Assembly: GCA_933228895.1 (NCBI GenBank) | Contig: OW121854.1 | Location: forward strand, 90,634,609 to 90,698,608 | Length of the DNA stretch: 64,000 nt | Origin: Platycnemis pennipes | Lineage: Eukaryota > Arthropoda > Insecta > Odonata > Platycnemididae | Direction of reading: 5' to 3' | Part shown: one piece after another, positions 6,995-60,640 of the stretch | How the letters are laid out: the number at the start of each line of letters is the position of its first letter | Numbering within the stretch: position 1 is the stretch's first letter | Notes under the pieces: model-generated | The model's database searches: none | What the model was told of the DNA's origin: nothing | Seen by the model: the letters and a program-made list of their open reading frames with translations, nothing else | Translations under genes and position numbers: made by a program

Positions 6995-7110
6995 TTTTTA
7001 CAGGGCTAGGTTGCTCATAGTGGCCGACGTTTCGATGCTCTTCTCGGGCATCATCCTCAGGGCAGTTGAGTAATCAACTCAACAGTTGATTGAATTGAGA
7101 TGCGTTGGCC
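6995..7110 (-). mobile_element. Penelope-like element terminal fragment
   Basis: The minus-strand sequence contains CTGAGGA, a short stem-loop, then CGAAACGTCGGC. This combination is characteristic of PLE terminal repeats (pLTRs), where a hammerhead ribozyme core lies close to the end. No coding sequence of the element is left here. The flanking TCAACTC/GTTGAT inverted bits may be part of it. The boundaries are approximate. Confidence 0.6.
7026..7060 (-). ncRNA. Hammerhead-ribozyme-like core in a PLE fragment
   Basis: On the minus strand the order is CTGAGGA (7060-7054), a stem GATGC / GCATC closing a 9-nt loop, then GAAAC and GTC. This is the conserved CUGANGA - stem II - GAAA - stem III - NUH order of hammerhead ribozymes. 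Bases outside the core can form a short stem I (GCC before CTGAGGA, GGC after GTC). The palindromic ACGT at stem III is very short, as reported for PLE ribozymes, which may act as dimers. Self-cleavage is inferred, not shown. Confidence 0.55.
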
Positions 7111-7209: not shown

Positions 7210-7508
7210 AATGGGGTCGTTCACCATAATTGTTTTACTGCCGAATCTGATAGAGTTTGTAAAATAAAAAGACCCGTATTTTTCCGTTTTTTGATCCGTC
7301 AATTATTTCCCGAGTTATAAGCAGCGAAAAATTAATGTTTTTAACCCTTTCGGAAAAGTGGGTGTGGTGCAACCTCTGACGTATATTGACTTCGTCCAAT
7401 CACAACTGAGCCCGCGAAGCTACTTTGCCTTATCGCAATGGGGGGGAAACAGCTGACTCGGCCAATCGGAACGACTGCGACAGCATCTGTGCGAGCATAC
7501 CTTCCGAG
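7210..7508 (+). repeat. ~300-bp interspersed repeat, copy 1
   Basis: This segment matches 21606-21903 in the same orientation over essentially its whole length, with scattered substitutions. Shared landmarks are ACCCGTATTTTTCCGTTTTTTG, CAATTATTTC, GACTTCGTCCAATCACAACT, GAGCCCGCGAAG, CTTATCGCAATGGGGGG and a shared right edge at ACCTTCCGAG. It carries no open frame that makes sense, no obvious terminal inverted repeat and no tRNA-like head. The family is not recognised. Confidence 0.8.
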
Positions 7509-10974: not shown

Positions 10975-11055
10975 GTGACACTGAAAAGAACTGGTCCCAC
11001 TACCCTGATGAGTGAATTTCACTTGGTTTCTTGGTCACTACTCCTGCTTGCACCT
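10975..11055 (+). repeat. SINE-A 3' fragment
   Basis: GAAAAGAACTGGTCCCACTA followed by CCTGATGAGTGAATTTCAC matches the middle of SINE-A at 39.6 kb and 58.5 kb (GAAAGGAACTGGCCCCC, then GTGTGAATTTCACACG). No tRNA-like head remains. Confidence 0.5.
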
Positions 11056-19112: not shown

Positions 19113-19826
19113 GACTTGAAAACACCCATGATAATTACTTAATAGTAGATAATACATACGTCTCAGTTGTTTTTGATGACAACATTTTTAAAATGTCGTA
19201 TTTTTCCAACATTTACATGGATTTATTGTTAAACCCCATCACCTTCTTTTTAAAAATCCTCAGTAATTCGGCATCCATTCATCACTCTGTTGTTGATAGC
19301 AAAAATAAATTAAAGTTTACCCATTGATGTTATGAGTGCCTTTTATTTGGATCTAATTAGGTGTTTAATTACATAAATGGCACTTGATTTGTGAAAATTT
19401 ATGAACAAATTCAAATTCTCGTTACCACCCAATATAACCTCTTTTTCTGCTTCGAGCCCATTTCTCCCAATATATTAAATTAGTAATATACTTGACTCTT
19501 TATCGTTTGCATCCCTCTCCACTCAACCTACCTGTTCTATTTTTTTCATTAACCTTATTAATATAATCACCATTCACGTCATTTGCATTATCTCCGTTAT
19601 TACCCTCTGAAGTAAAAATTATATCACTCCACTCCAGGGTTTCCCAACTCGTAGTATATTATCAATATTCCCGGGATTTCTAATTTTGAAACAAAAGGTT
19701 TGTAGGTCTCACAAGCTAAGAGTTTTAGGACTTTTTTGGGCAGGGGTACAGCGAGGTCACAAAAGATTATTTCTCATTGCAAAGTCTAATGTCTCACGTT
19801 TAGTTTAAATGTAGTGTAAAGAATGC
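19113..19826. other. AT-rich stretch, nothing recognised
   Basis: No repeat, RNA or coding signal was recognised between the SINE-B tail fragment and the long hairpin. Confidence 0.4.
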
Positions 19827-20003
19827 GTGGTATCGGTAAAATGCATAATTTTTACAATTCCACAATATAAAATAACACTGGCACGACCCGGGTTTCAGTG
19901 CATGAGCTCCATCTCCACCACCTGAAACCCGGGTCGTGCCAGTGCTATTTTATACTGTGGTATTGTAAAAGTTATACATTTTATTGATAAAATGTCATAC
20001 CAC
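19827..20003. repeat. Long imperfect hairpin (foldback element) with GAAACCCGGGTCGT core
   Basis: Arms 19827-19898 and 19922-20003 are reverse complements with a 23-nt loop. The inner ~40 bp of each arm are almost perfect (CTGAAACCCGGGTCGTGCCA on one side); the outer part carries small differences, including a roughly 10-nt insertion in the right arm. The innermost core GAAACCCGGGTCGT is identical to that of the hairpin at 58.6 kb, while the distal arm sequences differ. This points to a shared family rather than chance palindromes. The likely origin is two PLE-type terminal repeats in head-to-head orientation. Confidence 0.75.
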
Positions 20004-20239
20004 CAAGTCACTAGTGATCTTGTTTTACTTGTACGTGGTAACGGGTAATTTACTAAAATCCAAGAAGGCACGAGGAACCCCTACATTATTGTGAAGCAAA
20101 TTATTACTTCGACTTTGCAATAATCTTTTCTCGGCTCTTTACTAGACGCGAGAAAGTGTATAGGTTGCGGGAGAAGAACGAAGTTTTCCTGAAACTCGTT
20201 TCCGCAAGCAGAGGAGTCAAAATAACGAGCTTTCCTTCC

Positions 20240-21605: not shown

Positions 21606-21903
21606 ATTGGGTTCGTTTACCATATTTTTACTGTCGGATCTGATAGCGCTTGTAAAATAAAAATACCCGTATTTTTCCGTTTTTTGAACCGTCAATTATT
21701 TCTCGAGTTATAAGCGGCGAAAAACTGATGCTTTTAACCCTTTTGGAAAAGTGGGCAAGGAGCAACCTCTGACGTCATTGACTTCGTCCAATCACAACTG
21801 AGCCCGCGAAGATACATCGCCTTATCGCAATGGGGGGGGGGACACAGCTGACTCTGCCAATAGGAGCAGTTGCGACAGCATATGTTCGAGCAGACCTTCC
21901 GAG
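21606..21903 (+). repeat. ~300-bp interspersed repeat, copy 2
   Basis: This is the second copy of the 7210-7508 repeat in the same orientation. It shares the landmarks ACCCGTATTTTTCCG, CTCGAGTTATAAGC, GGAAAAGTGGG, GACTTCGTCCAATCACAACT and ACCTTCCGAG. The sequence outside the shared block is unrelated, so this is a dispersed element rather than a segmental duplication. Confidence 0.8.
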
Positions 21904-24657: not shown

Positions 24658-25341
24658 CTAGTCAACATACTCTTCCATCGGGCTTAGTCTTCGATGGGAA
24701 ATAAGGAGTACAGTTGAGTGAAAGTTTCTCGGGTCTTCCACCGGGTCAAAGGCTCCATCTCTGCCGAAGTTCCGGAAAACGACTCGTTTTCCATCTTCAG
24801 GGCTGTGATATGCCTTGTCAAATTTGGTGGGTTTATATATATTCTGCCAGGACGTCAAGTGTCTCCTATTGGCTGGTCGTTCTGCCTCATGCTCCGGACG
24901 CATTTCAAAATTGGCTTCCATGTCGCTGAGGTAGAATCCAGCGTCTCGATTGAAATTATTCCCATTAAGGCGGATCTCTATGGCCTCCTTGATCAGCCAG
25001 TCCCAGTGGCTTCGAGAGTGTGCAAGTAATTTTGTTTTGTCCCACAAAATTGCATGGTCGTTGAGGATGCTGTATTCTGCCACAGTCGACTTTTCAGGTT
25101 GCGCCAAACGGAAATGTCTCTGGTGTTCTTTTAATCTAGTCTCAATGGTCCGGCTAGTCTCTCCCACATAGAGTTCACCAAACTCACATGGGACCTGATA
25201 GACACCCGGTGTCTTCAGGCCAATTGGGTCCTTTGTCTTTACCACCGGGTCTCTAATTGTTGGTGGTGGTAGATGTATTGTTTTTATGTCGTAACGCCGC
25301 AGTATACGGTGAATTTTCCCAGATATCTTCCTGGAGATCAC
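24658..25341 (-). CDS. Penelope-like element protein, C-terminal GIY-YIG endonuclease part (partial)
   Basis: The frame is open for 227 codons. It begins at a GTG exactly at the truncation point, so the real start is missing. Residues ~1-45 resemble the linker after the PLE reverse transcriptase (RILRRYDIKTI, then KDPIGLKTP). The GIY-YIG domain follows: GVYQVPC (~46-52), ELYVGET (~56-62), R-LKEH (~69-73), then AEYSI where active family members usually have AEH. The downstream block IKEAIEIRLNGNNFNRDAGF (~137-156) is typical of PLEs and carries the expected Glu and Asn. The last ~65 residues are encoded by the terminal repeat itself. The missing polymerase and the His-to-Tyr change suggest an inactive copy. 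The nuclease would nick target DNA for target-primed reverse transcription. Confidence 0.85.
   Translation of the reverse strand: MISRKISGKIHRILRRYDIKTIHLPPPTIRDPVVKTKDPIGLKTPGVYQVPCEFGELYVGETSRTIETRLKEHQRHFRLAQPEKSTVAEYSILNDHAILWDKTKLLAHSRSHWDWLIKEAIEIRLNGNNFNRDAGFYLSDMEANFEMRPEHEAERPANRRHLTSWQNIYKPTKFDKAYHSPEDGKRVVFRNFGRDGAFDPVEDPRNFHSTVLLISHRRLSPMEEYVD
24766..24800 (-). ncRNA. Hammerhead-ribozyme-like core, minus-strand pLTR (damaged)
   Basis: The minus strand reads CTGAAGA, then an 8-bp stem GGAAAACG / CGTTTTCC, then CGGAACTTC. CTGAAGA and stem II are intact, but the GAAAC box has become GGAAC and GTC has become TTC. These changes hit bases needed for cleavage, so this copy is expected to be dead. 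Confidence 0.5.
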
Positions 25342-25490
25342 TTGACGTCCTGGCAGAATATATATAAACCCTCAAAATTTGACACGACACATCACAGTCC
25401 TGAAGATGGAAAACGAGTCGTTTTCCGAAACGTCGGCAGCGATGGAGCCTTTGACCCGGTGGAAGACCCGAGAAACTTTCACTCATCTAA
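25339..25490 (+). repeat. PLE terminal repeat (pLTR), plus orientation
   Basis: This is a head-on copy of the minus-strand terminal repeat. It still translates in frame to the same protein tail (LTSWQNIYKPSKFD, then EDGKRVVFRNVGSDGAFDPV), with a handful of substitutions compared with the other copy. It holds the TATA-like AATATATATAAACC, a plausible internal promoter element. The stretch to 25540 (ACGCCGGGAAAACACC) may also belong to it, as similar sequence is common next to PLE terminal repeats. Confidence 0.75.
25400..25434 (+). ncRNA. Hammerhead-ribozyme-like core in PLE terminal repeat (intact core)
   Basis: CTGAAGA (25400-25406) is followed by the perfect 8-bp stem II GGAAAACG (25408-25415) / CGTTTTCC (25419-25426) with an AGT loop, then GAAAC (25427-25431) and GTC (25432-25434). 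All invariant core positions of a hammerhead ribozyme are present in order. The stem III region ACGT is palindromic and very short, so activity might need a dimer. Stem I pairing is weak (GTC/GGC). Hammerhead motifs in PLE terminal repeats are established; activity of this copy is inferred. Confidence 0.65.
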
Positions 25491-36008: not shown

Positions 36009-36830
36009 GGGGGGTTATTTTGTAATCTCACTTTAGTGAGAATACGTCATAAAATGTCACATTTTCGTAGTTAAACTCCGCCACCCAGGCGGCGTGACCA
36101 TCTTCGGATCTCAAGGTGAACTGCCGGTCATGTGCTGGTCTTTTAGACGATTCATCCGCTCGATCCGTATCTTTCGACTCTAGATCCGTTTCATTATCTC
36201 CGCCTGCCATTAGTTCCCATCTCATCTTCATAAAGAACGTGACATGGAGCCACCATCGTTTCCACTTGAAGCTTGGGTTGGAAAAAAAGCAAGAGCGAGA
36301 ATGATGCAAACGATTCAAGGCATATTCACGCCGCCTGGGTGGCGGAGTTTAACTACGAAAAAGTGACATTTTATGACGCATTCTCACTAAAGTGAGATTA
36401 CAAAAAAAGGGTGATTACACAGAACTTAAACTTTCTTAAATCACGAATTGTATATTATCAACAAATGATTTCTTGAATGAAACACTATTGAGAAAATGAA
36501 AAATGATGAAACAATATAAACGTAAAATGTAGCGAGAAACAAATGCAAATTCAAATATTGGTATAAAGGAAATTATCGGACATGAATTATCTTGACACGC
36601 CATCCGAATCATTAAAATGATAGGGACAAACAATTTTTCACTCACCTTCACCGTATTCCTCCATGTTTGAAGAAAGCGGTCGCCGTTGCCAGGCACTCGT
36701 TTATTTATTCAACGACAGAAGCTTCGACAATCCACGATCCGTTCGTGAGCCAATCATTAAGAGAGCGAAACGGATCTCCCTCCTTCCCGCAAAGAGTCAT
36801 TAAAAAGATGAGATTACAAAATAACCCCCC
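36009..36830. mobile_element. Unclassified 822-bp element with 22-bp perfect terminal inverted repeats
   Basis: The left end GGGGGGTTATTTTGTAATCT (36009 onward, through CA at 36030) is repeated exactly in reverse at 36809-36830. Inside, the left end continues into a much longer arm (36015-36097) that pairs with 36326-36408 with about 3 mismatches in 83. A second right-hand copy of the terminus therefore lies in the middle of the element. No convincing target-site duplication was found, and no transposase motif is seen. Superfamily unknown; Merlin-like or hAT-like ends are possible but not supported further. Confidence 0.7.
36015..36408. repeat. Inner 83-bp inverted repeat pair
   Basis: Arms 36015-36097 and 36326-36408 are reverse complements at about 96%. 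Between them lie ~230 unique bases. Read outward, both arms stay open and encode nearly the same short peptide (HAAWVAEFNYE-VTFYD-FSLK then stop). On the minus strand this is the end of a 96-codon frame (36028-36318). Two differing residues are too few to judge selection. Confidence 0.8.
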
Positions 36831-37570: not shown

Positions 37571-37627
37571 TAGGGATTGGGATTAGAGATTAGGGATTAG
37601 GGATTTATTGGGCGAGTATAATTAGGG
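37570..37627 (+). repeat. Degenerate TTAGGGA-type tandem tract
   Basis: The plus strand shows repeated ATTAGGGATT units (ATTAGGGATTGGGATTAGAG, then ATTAGGGATTAGGGATTT) running up to and into the first 128-bp direct repeat. The units are 7-mers rather than the 5-mer TTAGG of most insect telomeres. Confidence 0.5.
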
Positions 37628-37737
37628 ATCCATCTCCATATTTGTCTGCTTTTCTTCAATTTTGTTGTGAGAGATGCATGTTTTGTGCCTCTTGATAAAG
37701 TCGTCATTTGATTCAATTAATAACTTTTTGTGTACTG
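37610..37737 (+). repeat. 128-bp direct repeat, copy 1
   Basis: Matches 38564-38691 with only two substitutions visible over 128 bases. It begins GGGCGAGTATAATTAGGGAT and ends TAACTTTTTGTGTACTG. The boundaries are sharp on both sides. There are no TG...CA ends or terminal inverted repeats. Confidence 0.85.
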
Positions 37738-38563
37738 TTTACTCAGATTGATAGATTATTTTTCTACTAGTAACAATAGATTATAAAGGTGTATTCTCAT
37801 ATTTATTTGCATTGCCAAATGCTAAGAATTTCTTCTCTACACTATATAATTCTCATCAGGGGGGAATATTTCCTACCCTCTACCAACTACCTTTTCCTCT
37901 CTACTCTCTCCTATTATCGAACATATATTTTATTTCCTTCCACCTTCTCCCGTACCCAGAATGTCACCCAAACTATGGCATTTGGTGTCTCATCGTCAAT
38001 ATTACCTGTTCTATCCACCCACTTTGCATCGTCTCAATTTCAACCTCATTCCCTTTACAACAGTACAAACATACTTCCCTCTCTCTGTCCATCGCATTTC
38101 TTCCCTTCTCCTCCGAATCCAAAGCTTCCTATCATTTCTCCAATCTTTGAGAAGTATATCCAGGCCCCTTGAATAAAGAGTTTCTGGTAATATAAACGAG
38201 TATCTTGAAATAGAATCTGGCGGAATTTGTTTTCAACGCAATGTGATAAGGAATGTGAGAAGTTTGATCCAATCGCTAAAAGGTAATAAATAAACAATGT
38301 AATTTTAAGAGAATTTCTAATGAATAATAAAGAGGAAGGAAATATAAAATAAAATTAATATCTGGAAATAAACATATAAGTATGCGTACCCGAATCATAG
38401 GATTAGGTAGGAAAGTTCACGCAAAAGGCCTTGCCAATAAATGTTTTTACACCCATCGGATTTACACTTAAAAGATACAAATCTCAACATGGTATTTTAC
38501 GCTTTTCATAGAGCATCATTTGTTATCAATTTATATTTTCCTTTGTATATAGTGATATGTGAT
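37738..38563. other. Interval between the direct repeats
   Basis: The first half (37860-38170) is pyrimidine-rich, with overlapping open frames (37789-38172, 127 codons; 37812-38150, 112 codons) that are explained by low stop density. The second half is AT-rich. No transposon protein is encoded. Confidence 0.4.
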
Positions 38564-38691
38564 GGGCGAGTATAATTCGGGATCCATCTCCATATTTGTC
38601 TGCTTTTCTTCAATTTTGTTGTGAGAGATACATGTTTTGTGCCTCTTGATAAAGTCGTCATTTGATTCAATTAATAACTTTTTGTGTACTG
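38564..38691 (+). repeat. 128-bp direct repeat, copy 2
   Basis: Nearly identical to 37610-37737, including TCCATCTCCATATTTGTCTG and CTTGATAAAGTCGTCATTTG. The flanking bases differ immediately outside, so this is either two insertions of one small element or a local duplication. Confidence 0.85.
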
Positions 38692-39511: not shown

Positions 39512-39770
39512 AATAGCAAGTAGAGCGTGGTGGCTGAGTGCATAGAGTGCTGAGCCACTGATCGAAGGGTCCCGGGTTAAAATCCGGGTGAAACCTTTGG
39601 ACACCCCCAAACGAAAACTCCTTGGAGTACGAGGTGGCCCAGGGAAAGGAACTGGCCCCCTTACCCTGAGTGTGTGAAATTCATACGTCTGAGGCTTAAT
39701 TCGGGGTGAAAACTACCCTCACCTATCCAAACCAACCATCGGGTTGAATCGCTGAGTGAAATAGCAAGTA
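39512..39770 (+). mobile_element. SINE-A, complete copy with exact target-site duplication
   Basis: The element 39523-39759 (237 bp) is flanked by AATAGCAAGTA at 39512-39522 and 39760-39770, an exact 11-bp duplication. The tRNA-like head has box A-like GTGGCTGAGTGCATAGAGTG and box B-like GGGTTAAAATCC. The body continues GGCCCAGGGAAAGGAACTGG, GTGTGAAATTCATACG, a CTCACCTATCC block and the tail CGGGTTGAATCGCTGAGTGA. The duplication shows LINE-assisted retrotransposition, presumably relatively recent. Confidence 0.9.
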
Positions 39771-57765: not shown

Positions 57766-58339
57766 TTGACCCAACCCTTTCCCGGTAAAACTTCGTGGCA
57801 CCTTCTGAGACCAACAGAACCTCATGAGAAAAGAAGGAAGAGGCATCGACTCCTAAATCGTGCCTTGGTGCACTCTTTTTCCCCTCTAGAAGCATTGAGC
57901 GTGATTTGGAGGAAGCAACGCGCAGCGGAAAAGGATAGAGAAACGATCGGAAGGGTTTCCAGAGTGATTCAAAGGAGGGGTGGATTTTATCGCCGTCTCC
58001 AAGGAATCAACCTCCTTTTGGGGGGTGGTTTTTTTTTCTTCCACTTCCCTCTCGCGAACAAGGTCAAAATGGATGGATTCGGCGATGCAATTCGGCGCCT
58101 CCCTCCTCCCAGACGTGCTTCTCTGTATCCTCCGTGCAAAGAAGGAGTCGAAAACGGTTGAAGATGGATGACTCGAGAAATGGGGTACGGAGACGGTTTG
58201 GACTGCGTCGTGGGAGGAAATCGGGTGTTTGAGATTTCGGCCTGTTTCACCGGCAACTTTGGAGATTTTCCCCCAAGAAGATTTGTTCCCGGAGAACAGT
58301 ACGTAATGCGCAGGGTTCTCCTGGAGAAATGTCTGTCCA
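57766..58339. other. GC-rich patch with opposed 131-codon frames, unassigned
   Basis: Plus (57766-58161) and minus (57987-58382) frames of equal length overlap, a sign of low stop density rather than coding. The products are Arg/Pro-rich and motif-less. The minus frame runs into the adjacent SINE-A. Confidence 0.25.
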
Positions 58340-58591
58340 TGTGTCTTTGAAGGGGTTCGTGGTGGCCTTGTGGGTAGAGCACTGAGCTACTGACCGGAGT
58401 GTCCCGGGTTCAAATCCCGGGCAAGAGCCTTTCTGGACACCCCCTTCCTCGCGGTTCAATTTTCTGCGTCTCAGAACTTCGTCCGAAATCGCTGTTGGCC
58501 CAGGGAAAGGAACTGGCCCCCCTAACCTGAATGTGTGAATTTCACACGCCATTGGCTTGTCACGGGGTGAGCTCTACTCTCACCTATCAAA

Positions 58592-58829
58592 GACCAACCT
58601 TCGGTAACACAGAAAGAAAAACACGAGCCAAATCCACAAAAATAAACTTTACTACGACCCGGGTTTCACTGTATTACAGCATCGTCAGGACGACGATACT
58701 GTACACAGTGAAACCCGGGTCGTACTAAAGTTTATTTTTGTGGATTCGGCTCGTGTTTTTCTTTCTGTGTTATCATGTTTCGCTTCCACTCCATATCGCC
58801 TGAATCTTCAGAATTTGACCAACCTTCGG
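58592..58829. mobile_element. 212-bp foldback insertion with 13-bp target-site duplication
   Basis: GACCAACCTTCGG occurs at 58592-58604 and again at 58817-58829; the intact SINE-A at 39.7 kb has the corresponding sequence once. The insert 58605-58816 begins TAACACAGAAAG and consists of two 68-nt arms (58605-58672, 58705-58772; two mismatches) around a 32-nt loop that itself pairs partly (ATCGTC/GACGAT), then a 44-nt unpaired tail. It encodes no protein. The innermost core GAAACCCGGGTCGT is shared with the 19.8-kb hairpin. It is best explained as a non-autonomous element derived from PLE terminal repeats. Confidence 0.85.
58654..58688 (-). ncRNA. Hammerhead-like core within the foldback insertion
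   Basis: The minus strand reads CTGACGA (58688-58682), a short stem CTGT/ACAG with a 3-nt loop, then TGAAAC and CCGGGTC. The order fits CUGANGA - stem II - GAAA - stem III - GUC. Stem III would be the palindrome ACCCGGGT, which has no loop and so suits a dimer. Stem I pairing is poor. The facing plus-strand copy has lost CTGANGA (it reads ACGACGA), so only one arm keeps the motif. Activity is doubtful; ancestry is the main point. Confidence 0.4.
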
Positions 58830-58862
58830 GTTGAATCACTGAGTGAGTGAGTGTGTCTTTGA

Positions 58863-60640
58863 GGATTGCCGTAAGTCACGCTTTGAACGGTGAAAGAGTA
58901 AAAAGTCTTGCTTCGAATCCACCATAGTCACCTGGACAGTGTATCCCTAAATCTAATTTTTCGGGAATGTGGTTGCCAAGTACGAAGCTGAAACCTTGGA
59001 ATGGAATGGGCAAAACTTCTGGCCGAGCGATTGGAATCCGTCTTAATTTTAGTGGAGGGGAAAACTCATGTACTGGACGTAAAGGGAAGAATTCTTTTAC
59101 ATAGATAATGTATCACTCTCCAAACAGTTTGCCTAATCTACTTTCTGAGAACTTTTGAATGTTCAACGGCAAATCGTAAGAAATCTTTTTCGCCGTGGAG
59201 AGTGCTTTTCATTGAAAAAGTTCAGTTCTGCCCTTATCGAAAAGGCTCATGGGAACGTAGCTTGCTGATTTCACCAGGGAGGCATCCGTTTGTATGTGGT
59301 TGAAAACTCCTCTAAACAGTCTAACAAGCCAACTACTCCAATGACAGAAGCCGTAAAACATTTCCTATTTCTTCATATGACCGGTTTTGATACTTGCATA
59401 TTAGAGGGTTGAATCGTTACATTATTATTATTATGTACTTAGTTGTCTAAGAATTATAAACGACTCTGTAAAAAGCGATGAAATTAATTACAAATCATAA
59501 ATGAGATTATAGCAGAAGACACTCGGTTTTGTATTATTAATTATCAGTTTAATGATAATCAGCGATTAATTCGCTCACTGCCAACGTAACTGATGAAAAT
59601 ACTTATTTCTGATTGATTATTGATGACTTCTTGTGCGTGTATTTTATGTGTTAAACTAATTTTAGATCTTGATGATTGATAAACAATTTCTTAGGCTCAA
59701 GATATCCATACTCAAAGAGAGCGGAGAGTAGCGTCAAACCAATCTCAGGGTTACTTACTTGTAAGGCTGATGATTAAGGCTTTTTTTATATCAGGTGAAA
59801 TTTTTCTGAAGAACGAAAACAATTATGGGCGCTCTTTTCTGTTATAAATCAATGCGCATAAACCGTTTGGGTGATGCGATTTGTACTACCAGAAATTTAA
59901 CAACCGTCTTATTAACCATCCACATGAAATGATGGTTAATCTTTAACAGTTATTGCAAAATCAACATAAGGCATATTTTGACCAGTATGTTGGTTTTCCA
60001 CGATAATTATTTCCTCATTCAATGTGTAATTATTCCGCTTTCCTATCCGATTCTCGATTTTTATTCATTTTTCTCCGTTTAATTATGTGGTGAAGTGGAG
60101 ATTATTATTAATCTCCACGTAATCTCGTAATTAAATGTCATATATAATGCCAGACTACGGCATCTATAATATCCTATGATATTATATACTCCGTTGGTCA
60201 TATTAAGGCATATATAACATCACATCCTTCCCATACAATTCGGGAATACGCGATTTTTGTATGGAAAGAAGTCCTTAATCCATATACCTTAGTATTTACG
60301 CCTATTATGGTATCTCATTATTTGTGACAAGGAAGATATTCCCAACGTCATTGTAAAGCATACTCACTCAGAATCAATTTAAAAGATTCAGCGTAAATTC
60401 TAACCTATGATGTTTTAGCCATTTTTATCCAATTTCGTGTTGTTCGTGAATAAAACAAGCACCAGCTGCCTGCCTCGATGTATATCCCGTAAGTCAGTTT
60501 GGTTGGTGACGGCAAAGTTAAAGCACTAAGCTCCAACGTCATTTGAAATTTAAACGGAGATTCAGTTCCTTTTACCTGTCCCGGCTGTGATTTATAGGGA
60601 TCATGCACTCATTTGACGACAAAACTTGGCTTTAGGAGGA
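58863..60640. other. Unassigned stretch
   Basis: Near 58910-58920 GCTTCGAATCC resembles a box B, but the upstream box A is poor. The rest is AT-rich with no supported feature. A patch at 60110-60230 has several short overlapping palindromes (ATGCC...GGCAT, ATATCCTATGATATT). Confidence 0.35.

Follow-up and report, generated by a model that had tools for sequence, protein, structure and literature searches.

A 212-bp foldback insert in Platycnemis pennipes, probably two head-to-head pseudo-LTRs of a Penelope-like element

We analysed a 64,000-nt stretch of Platycnemis pennipes DNA (contig OW121854.1, positions 90,634,609 to 90,698,608; hereafter the window), in which a 212-bp insert at 58605–58816, lying inside a SINE-like repeat, very probably belongs to the Penelope-like elements (PLEs). 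We also consider it likely that this insert is a PLE integration that retained only two head-to-head pseudo-LTRs (pLTRs) and no ORF. An earlier note on this DNA had described arms of 68 nt with two mismatches, an exact 13-bp duplication and a 44-nt unpaired tail, and our analysis gave the same values. The insert is bordered by two exact copies of GACCAACCTTCGG in direct orientation (58592–58604 and 58817–58829), which we annotate as a target-site duplication on the basis of the exact repeat and of an empty-site alignment described below; this 13-mer occurs at these two places only in the window and is absent from the other strand. The left arm (58605–58672, minus strand) would be an inverted pLTR without a tail and the right arm (58705–58772, plus strand) a pLTR in sense orientation, the two being 97% complementary. 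Alignments place between them a 32-nt apex (58673–58704) that is a gapped continuation of both arms; with gaps, the palindrome extends over 169 alignment columns (91%). The 44-nt tail (58773–58816, plus strand) follows the right arm only and contains an ATG at 58775, from which 14 codons stay open up to the end of the insert and which we infer to be the start codon of a PLE. No ORF of at least 150 amino acids overlaps the insert. Insert, arms and duplication all lie far outside chance expectation, since the predicted fold of the insert strand (−141.4 kcal/mol, z = −21.5) was equalled by none of 200 shuffles, the arm pair scored 231 bits in blastn versus 48.2 bits for the best minus-strand self-match in the shuffled window (20 two-base-block shuffles), and a direct repeat as good as the 13-bp duplication was found in 0 of 200 random zone pairs.

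The repeat that received the insert (58358–58855, plus strand; outer limits approximate) has an uninterrupted relative at 39526–39759 (plus strand), which serves as a paralogous empty site. An uninterrupted copy near 39.7 kb had already been pointed out, and joining the flanks of the insert with one copy of the duplication indeed yielded an alignment running through 39.53–39.76 kb. The duplicated stretch occurs once in this relative, with 11 of 13 bases identical. The interruption of a host repeat stands as first described, and the label of SINE has to be softened: the tRNA-like head scored 15.7 bits (E 2.9) against a gathering score of 29 in an Rfam search of 58300–59000 at relaxed E, and no tRNA was found by ARAGORN under the bacterial code. 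With this sub-threshold score, the repeat looks like a tRNA-derived SINE. A further short match to it (41 columns, 85%) lies at 10983–11022.

One arm carries a hammerhead-like core. On the minus strand, the motif scan delimited CTGACGA, a single T, a stem II of 5 bp with a 3-nt loop, GAAA and CCCGGGTCGT at 58654–58688, the left-arm sequence continuing after GAAA as CCCGGGTC. We take this order to be the hammerhead layout, for which we assume the consensus CTGANGA-T-stem II-GAAAC. The core is complete in the left arm only; at the apex, the right arm has only GACGA in common with the CTGACGA of the left. Read by eye, stem I appears to lack its 5′ strand. In the predicted fold of the isolated core, stem II pairs and the remainder is not a hammerhead (z = 0.34; 121 of 200 shuffles equally stable). 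With this strand of stem I seemingly absent and no hammerhead fold predicted for the core by itself, the ribozyme of this insert is probably dead; a transcript of the whole insert would form a single hairpin. A relaxed motif scan, whose criteria were set after the insert had been viewed, retained three of the 34 CTGANGA sites in the window (19 + 15), a count equal to the maximum of 3 (mean 0.74) that the same scan returned from 50 mononucleotide shuffles, and a stricter scan of the window returned no match. We estimate the expectation in 212 bp at about 0.0025 matches. The other two matches, at 25400 (+) and 7060 (−), both carry GAAACGTCGG. The latter, spanning 7024–7060 on the minus strand (CTGAGGATG ... 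GAAACGTCGG), is perhaps a solo PLE pLTR. Rfam reported no hammerhead in the whole window at the gathering threshold or in 58300–59000 at relaxed E, a weak piece of evidence because the hammerhead-like motif of the window's PLE copy, used as a control, was missed as well. Minimal hammerheads, usually without helix III, have been reported in PLEs (PMC6155905; PMC11167929, in the parts used here).

A second foldback of the same family lies at 19836–20033, its limits being set by a probable target-site duplication (CGTGGTATCG at 19826–19835 and CGTGGTAACG at 20034–20043; 9/10 match) that was equalled in 6 of 200 random zone pairs. A repeat finder placed its arms at 19831–19898 and 19922–19989 (90%), the first five bases of the former overlapping the probable duplication. 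The common core that had been noticed in the sequence, GAAACCCGGGTCGT (14 nt), was recovered in four mismatch-free copies in the window, two in the 58.6-kb insert and two in the second foldback, one in each arm. Outside this core the two foldbacks are 73–76% alike in two short matches (49 and 42 columns), and their tails and apices differ. In the second foldback, too, a tail follows the right arm and contains an ATG (19992), with 42 nt between insert end and ATG in both cases; this coincidence hinges on the edge chosen for the imperfect duplication, as extending it two bases past the mismatch would give 40 nt. The distances from GAAAC to ATG are 65 and 68 nt, and the chance that an ATG followed by 14 open codons lies directly past an arm end is 0.073 per site. 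A possible hammerhead remnant in the apex of the second foldback (7 of 9 positions, N scored as a match) was rejected, as it lies within chance (0.089 per 30 nt). Searching the window with a profile of the four arms recovered these arms at E below 1e-15, as expected for its own input, and no further convincing copy; four other matches, at E 1.9 to 7.9, were taken as chance. The profile likewise placed no arm of the 58.6-kb type beside an ORF in the window.

The window also contains a PLE copy with a different pLTR (24658–25488, minus strand), in which a 5′-truncated GIY-YIG endonuclease ORF lies between inverted pLTRs (24712–24866 and 25333–25488, 93% alike), and which includes the hammerhead-like motif at 25400 (+). 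Its ORF scored just under the cut-off for GIY-YIG (20.4 versus 22.6 bits) and matched proteins of Ischnura elegans, with 64% over 57% of the query for the best of them; among its 14 protein relatives, seven carry an organism name, in every case I. elegans. The arms of the 58.6-kb insert gave no blastn match to this copy, and no duplication was found flanking it, since 64 of 200 random pairs did as well as the best candidate.

The proposal that the insert consists of a pair of PLE terminal repeats fused head to head is supported by its hammerhead-like core, its one-sided tail and the second foldback with the same core, together with the inverted pLTRs of the PLE copy in the window and the published descriptions of such anatomy. 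An ORF for reverse transcriptase plus GIY-YIG endonuclease is absent, 212 bp being too short for one, so the insert is at most a PLE derivative and not a full element. Two PLE features are present, namely a short target-site duplication (13 bp, exact) and inverted pLTRs of which one may bear a tail. The sections of PMC3846280 used here describe the same features for Penelope elements of the rotifer Adineta vaga (Pen2a_Av and others): the pLTRs are inverted, most commonly head to head, an inverted pLTR completes the insert, one inverted pLTR may carry a 31-bp tail, the inverted 5′ pLTR is shorter, and palindromes occur at junctions. Duplications of 8, 9 and 10 bp flank some of those copies and none flank others. 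The A. vaga copies described there keep an ORF or cargo or are solo pLTRs, whereas nothing lies between the head-to-head pLTRs of our insert. These descriptions do not support calling the anatomy unusual, as the earlier note had done, and an undescribed non-autonomous family is not supported either: the ORF-less form needs only strong 5′ truncation, and mobilisation in trans may have taken place but need not be invoked. The structure is of a known kind, and this single case, otherwise ordinary for PLEs, is modestly informative. Searches of viral contigs, by pattern or with the PLE ORF, and of plasmids returned no matches; among other genome contigs there was none by pattern, and the PLE ORF led to 14 pattern stretches, of which 0 were confirmed. 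None of the literature titles and abstract openings searched named an ORF-less head-to-head pLTR insert.

As to how the insert arose, we lean slightly towards priming from both sides of the target. A PLE endonuclease/reverse transcriptase would cut the repeat with a stagger of 13 bp, so that the sequence to be duplicated sits on the two resulting 3′ ends, and both would prime reverse transcription within PLE RNA. For the tail-less left arm the start site would be an inner one, close to where the ORF begins; for the tailed right arm it would lie further out, about 14 codons inside the ORF. Both cDNAs would then halt at the hammerhead region, within the 5′ portion of the pLTR, where their ends would be joined, and gap filling would create the target-site duplication. 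The PLE enzyme, the two-sided priming and the end joining of the cDNAs are all inferred steps. In the parts of PMC11167929 used here, the protein of Poseidon_Ac (PAc) from Anolis carolinensis cuts and extends both target strands in vitro, and reverse transcription begins at two adjacent internal sites, with no difference in start site seen between the strands, the interval between the two sites defining the tail; the PAc hammerhead sits at the pLTR-ORF junction. All this resembles the arrangement proposed for our insert, and, as we read them together, PMC3846280 and PMC11167929 can explain it by two primed ends, two start sites and two cDNAs ending in the region of the hammerhead. There are also differences: PAc starts at a stem-loop 111–118 nt into its ORF, whereas the insert would start ~42 nt past its putative ATG, and PAc has, unlike the insert, an AT-rich target and an ORF that starts at stem II. 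Since RNA folds of the right arm plus tail did not surpass those of shuffled sequences (z = −0.53 and −0.23), no PAc-like stem-loop is apparent. The joining of the cDNAs is left unexplained, as no clear complementarity between their two 3′ ends was seen by eye. Speaking against a single template, the differences between the arms cluster at stem II, its loop and the adjoining bases (3 in 14 columns versus 2 in 68; p = 0.033, Fisher test, post hoc) and, judged by eye, leave stem II pairable.

The closest competitor, which we regard as rather unlikely, is a snap-back by self-priming, in which one cDNA or antisense RNA folds back and copies itself, such that both arms derive from one template. PMC3846280, in the parts used here, put this forward from palindromes at inverted junctions and proposed an antisense RNA origin for rotifer PLEs. 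Arms that are 97% alike over 68 nt fit such an origin, and a short apex loop is its expected residue. Snap-back from the tailed arm, however, predicts an apex in the orientation of that arm, and the sequence completing the hammerhead-like core is in left-arm orientation, opposite to the tail on the right arm; starting from the tail-less arm or from antisense RNA, it should not yield a one-sided tail. The asymmetry of tail and apex therefore favours priming from both strands, not decisively, with only two copies to judge by and the apex of the second foldback too degenerate to count as a test. It is improbable that the insert represents a non-autonomous hairpin family whose own transcripts a PLE re-mobilises in trans, in the manner of a head-to-head retrozyme. 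Two foldbacks with the same core within 64 kb would suit such a family, and trans mobilisation of unrelated cargo by pLTRs has been reported in A. vaga (PMC3846280, in the parts used here), but the wide divergence outside the core and the different tails and apices are what a diverse PLE lineage would leave through independent truncated insertions, and in the window the arm profile yields no other convincing copy. Metazoan retrozymes with type I hammerheads are likewise short, non-coding, hammerhead-bearing and low in GC, yet in the parts of PMC7229834 used here they are short tandem repeats of 150–450 bp, whereas the units of the insert stand head to head; with its two units inverted and no direct tandem copy, the insert lacks the tandem hammerhead-bearing units, a few hundred bp long, of a metazoan retrozyme. 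We regard as very improbable a DNA-transposon foldback or a MITE with terminal inverted repeats, for which the long inverted arms, the lack of coding capacity and the flanking duplication might speak, but which sits poorly with arms made asymmetric by a 44-nt tail on one side and with a hammerhead-like core in one of them. Most MITE families, moreover, have duplications shorter than 13 bp.

A bolder reading, which we hold to be doubtful, makes the hairpin the genomic footprint of two-ended target-primed reverse transcription by a PLE, in which the two 3′ ends of a single staggered break would each have primed a cDNA, one at each of two fixed start sites. In its boldest form, head-to-head pLTR pairs would be an abundant, self-standing class of insertions, arising whenever both cDNAs halt at the hammerhead. 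ORF-less head-to-head insertions would be the smallest product of the PLE reaction. As to how PLEs complete an insertion, the later steps await validation in PMC11167929 and self-priming was proposed in PMC3846280 (both in the parts used here). Across many copies, two-sided priming and snap-back could be told apart by the side that bears the tail, the spacing of the start sites and the orientation of the apex.

Other repeats were observed in the window. An inverted repeat at 36015–36408, with 83-nt arms (96%) separated by 228 nt, looks like a MITE; no 7-nt flanking duplication was found in the zones tested, and its end is matched over 27 nt at 36804–36830. A dispersed repeat of ~213 nt is present at 7233–7446 and 21626–21838 (90% identical), and a 129-nt direct repeat at 37609–37737 and 38563–38691, 954 nt apart, is 98% identical.
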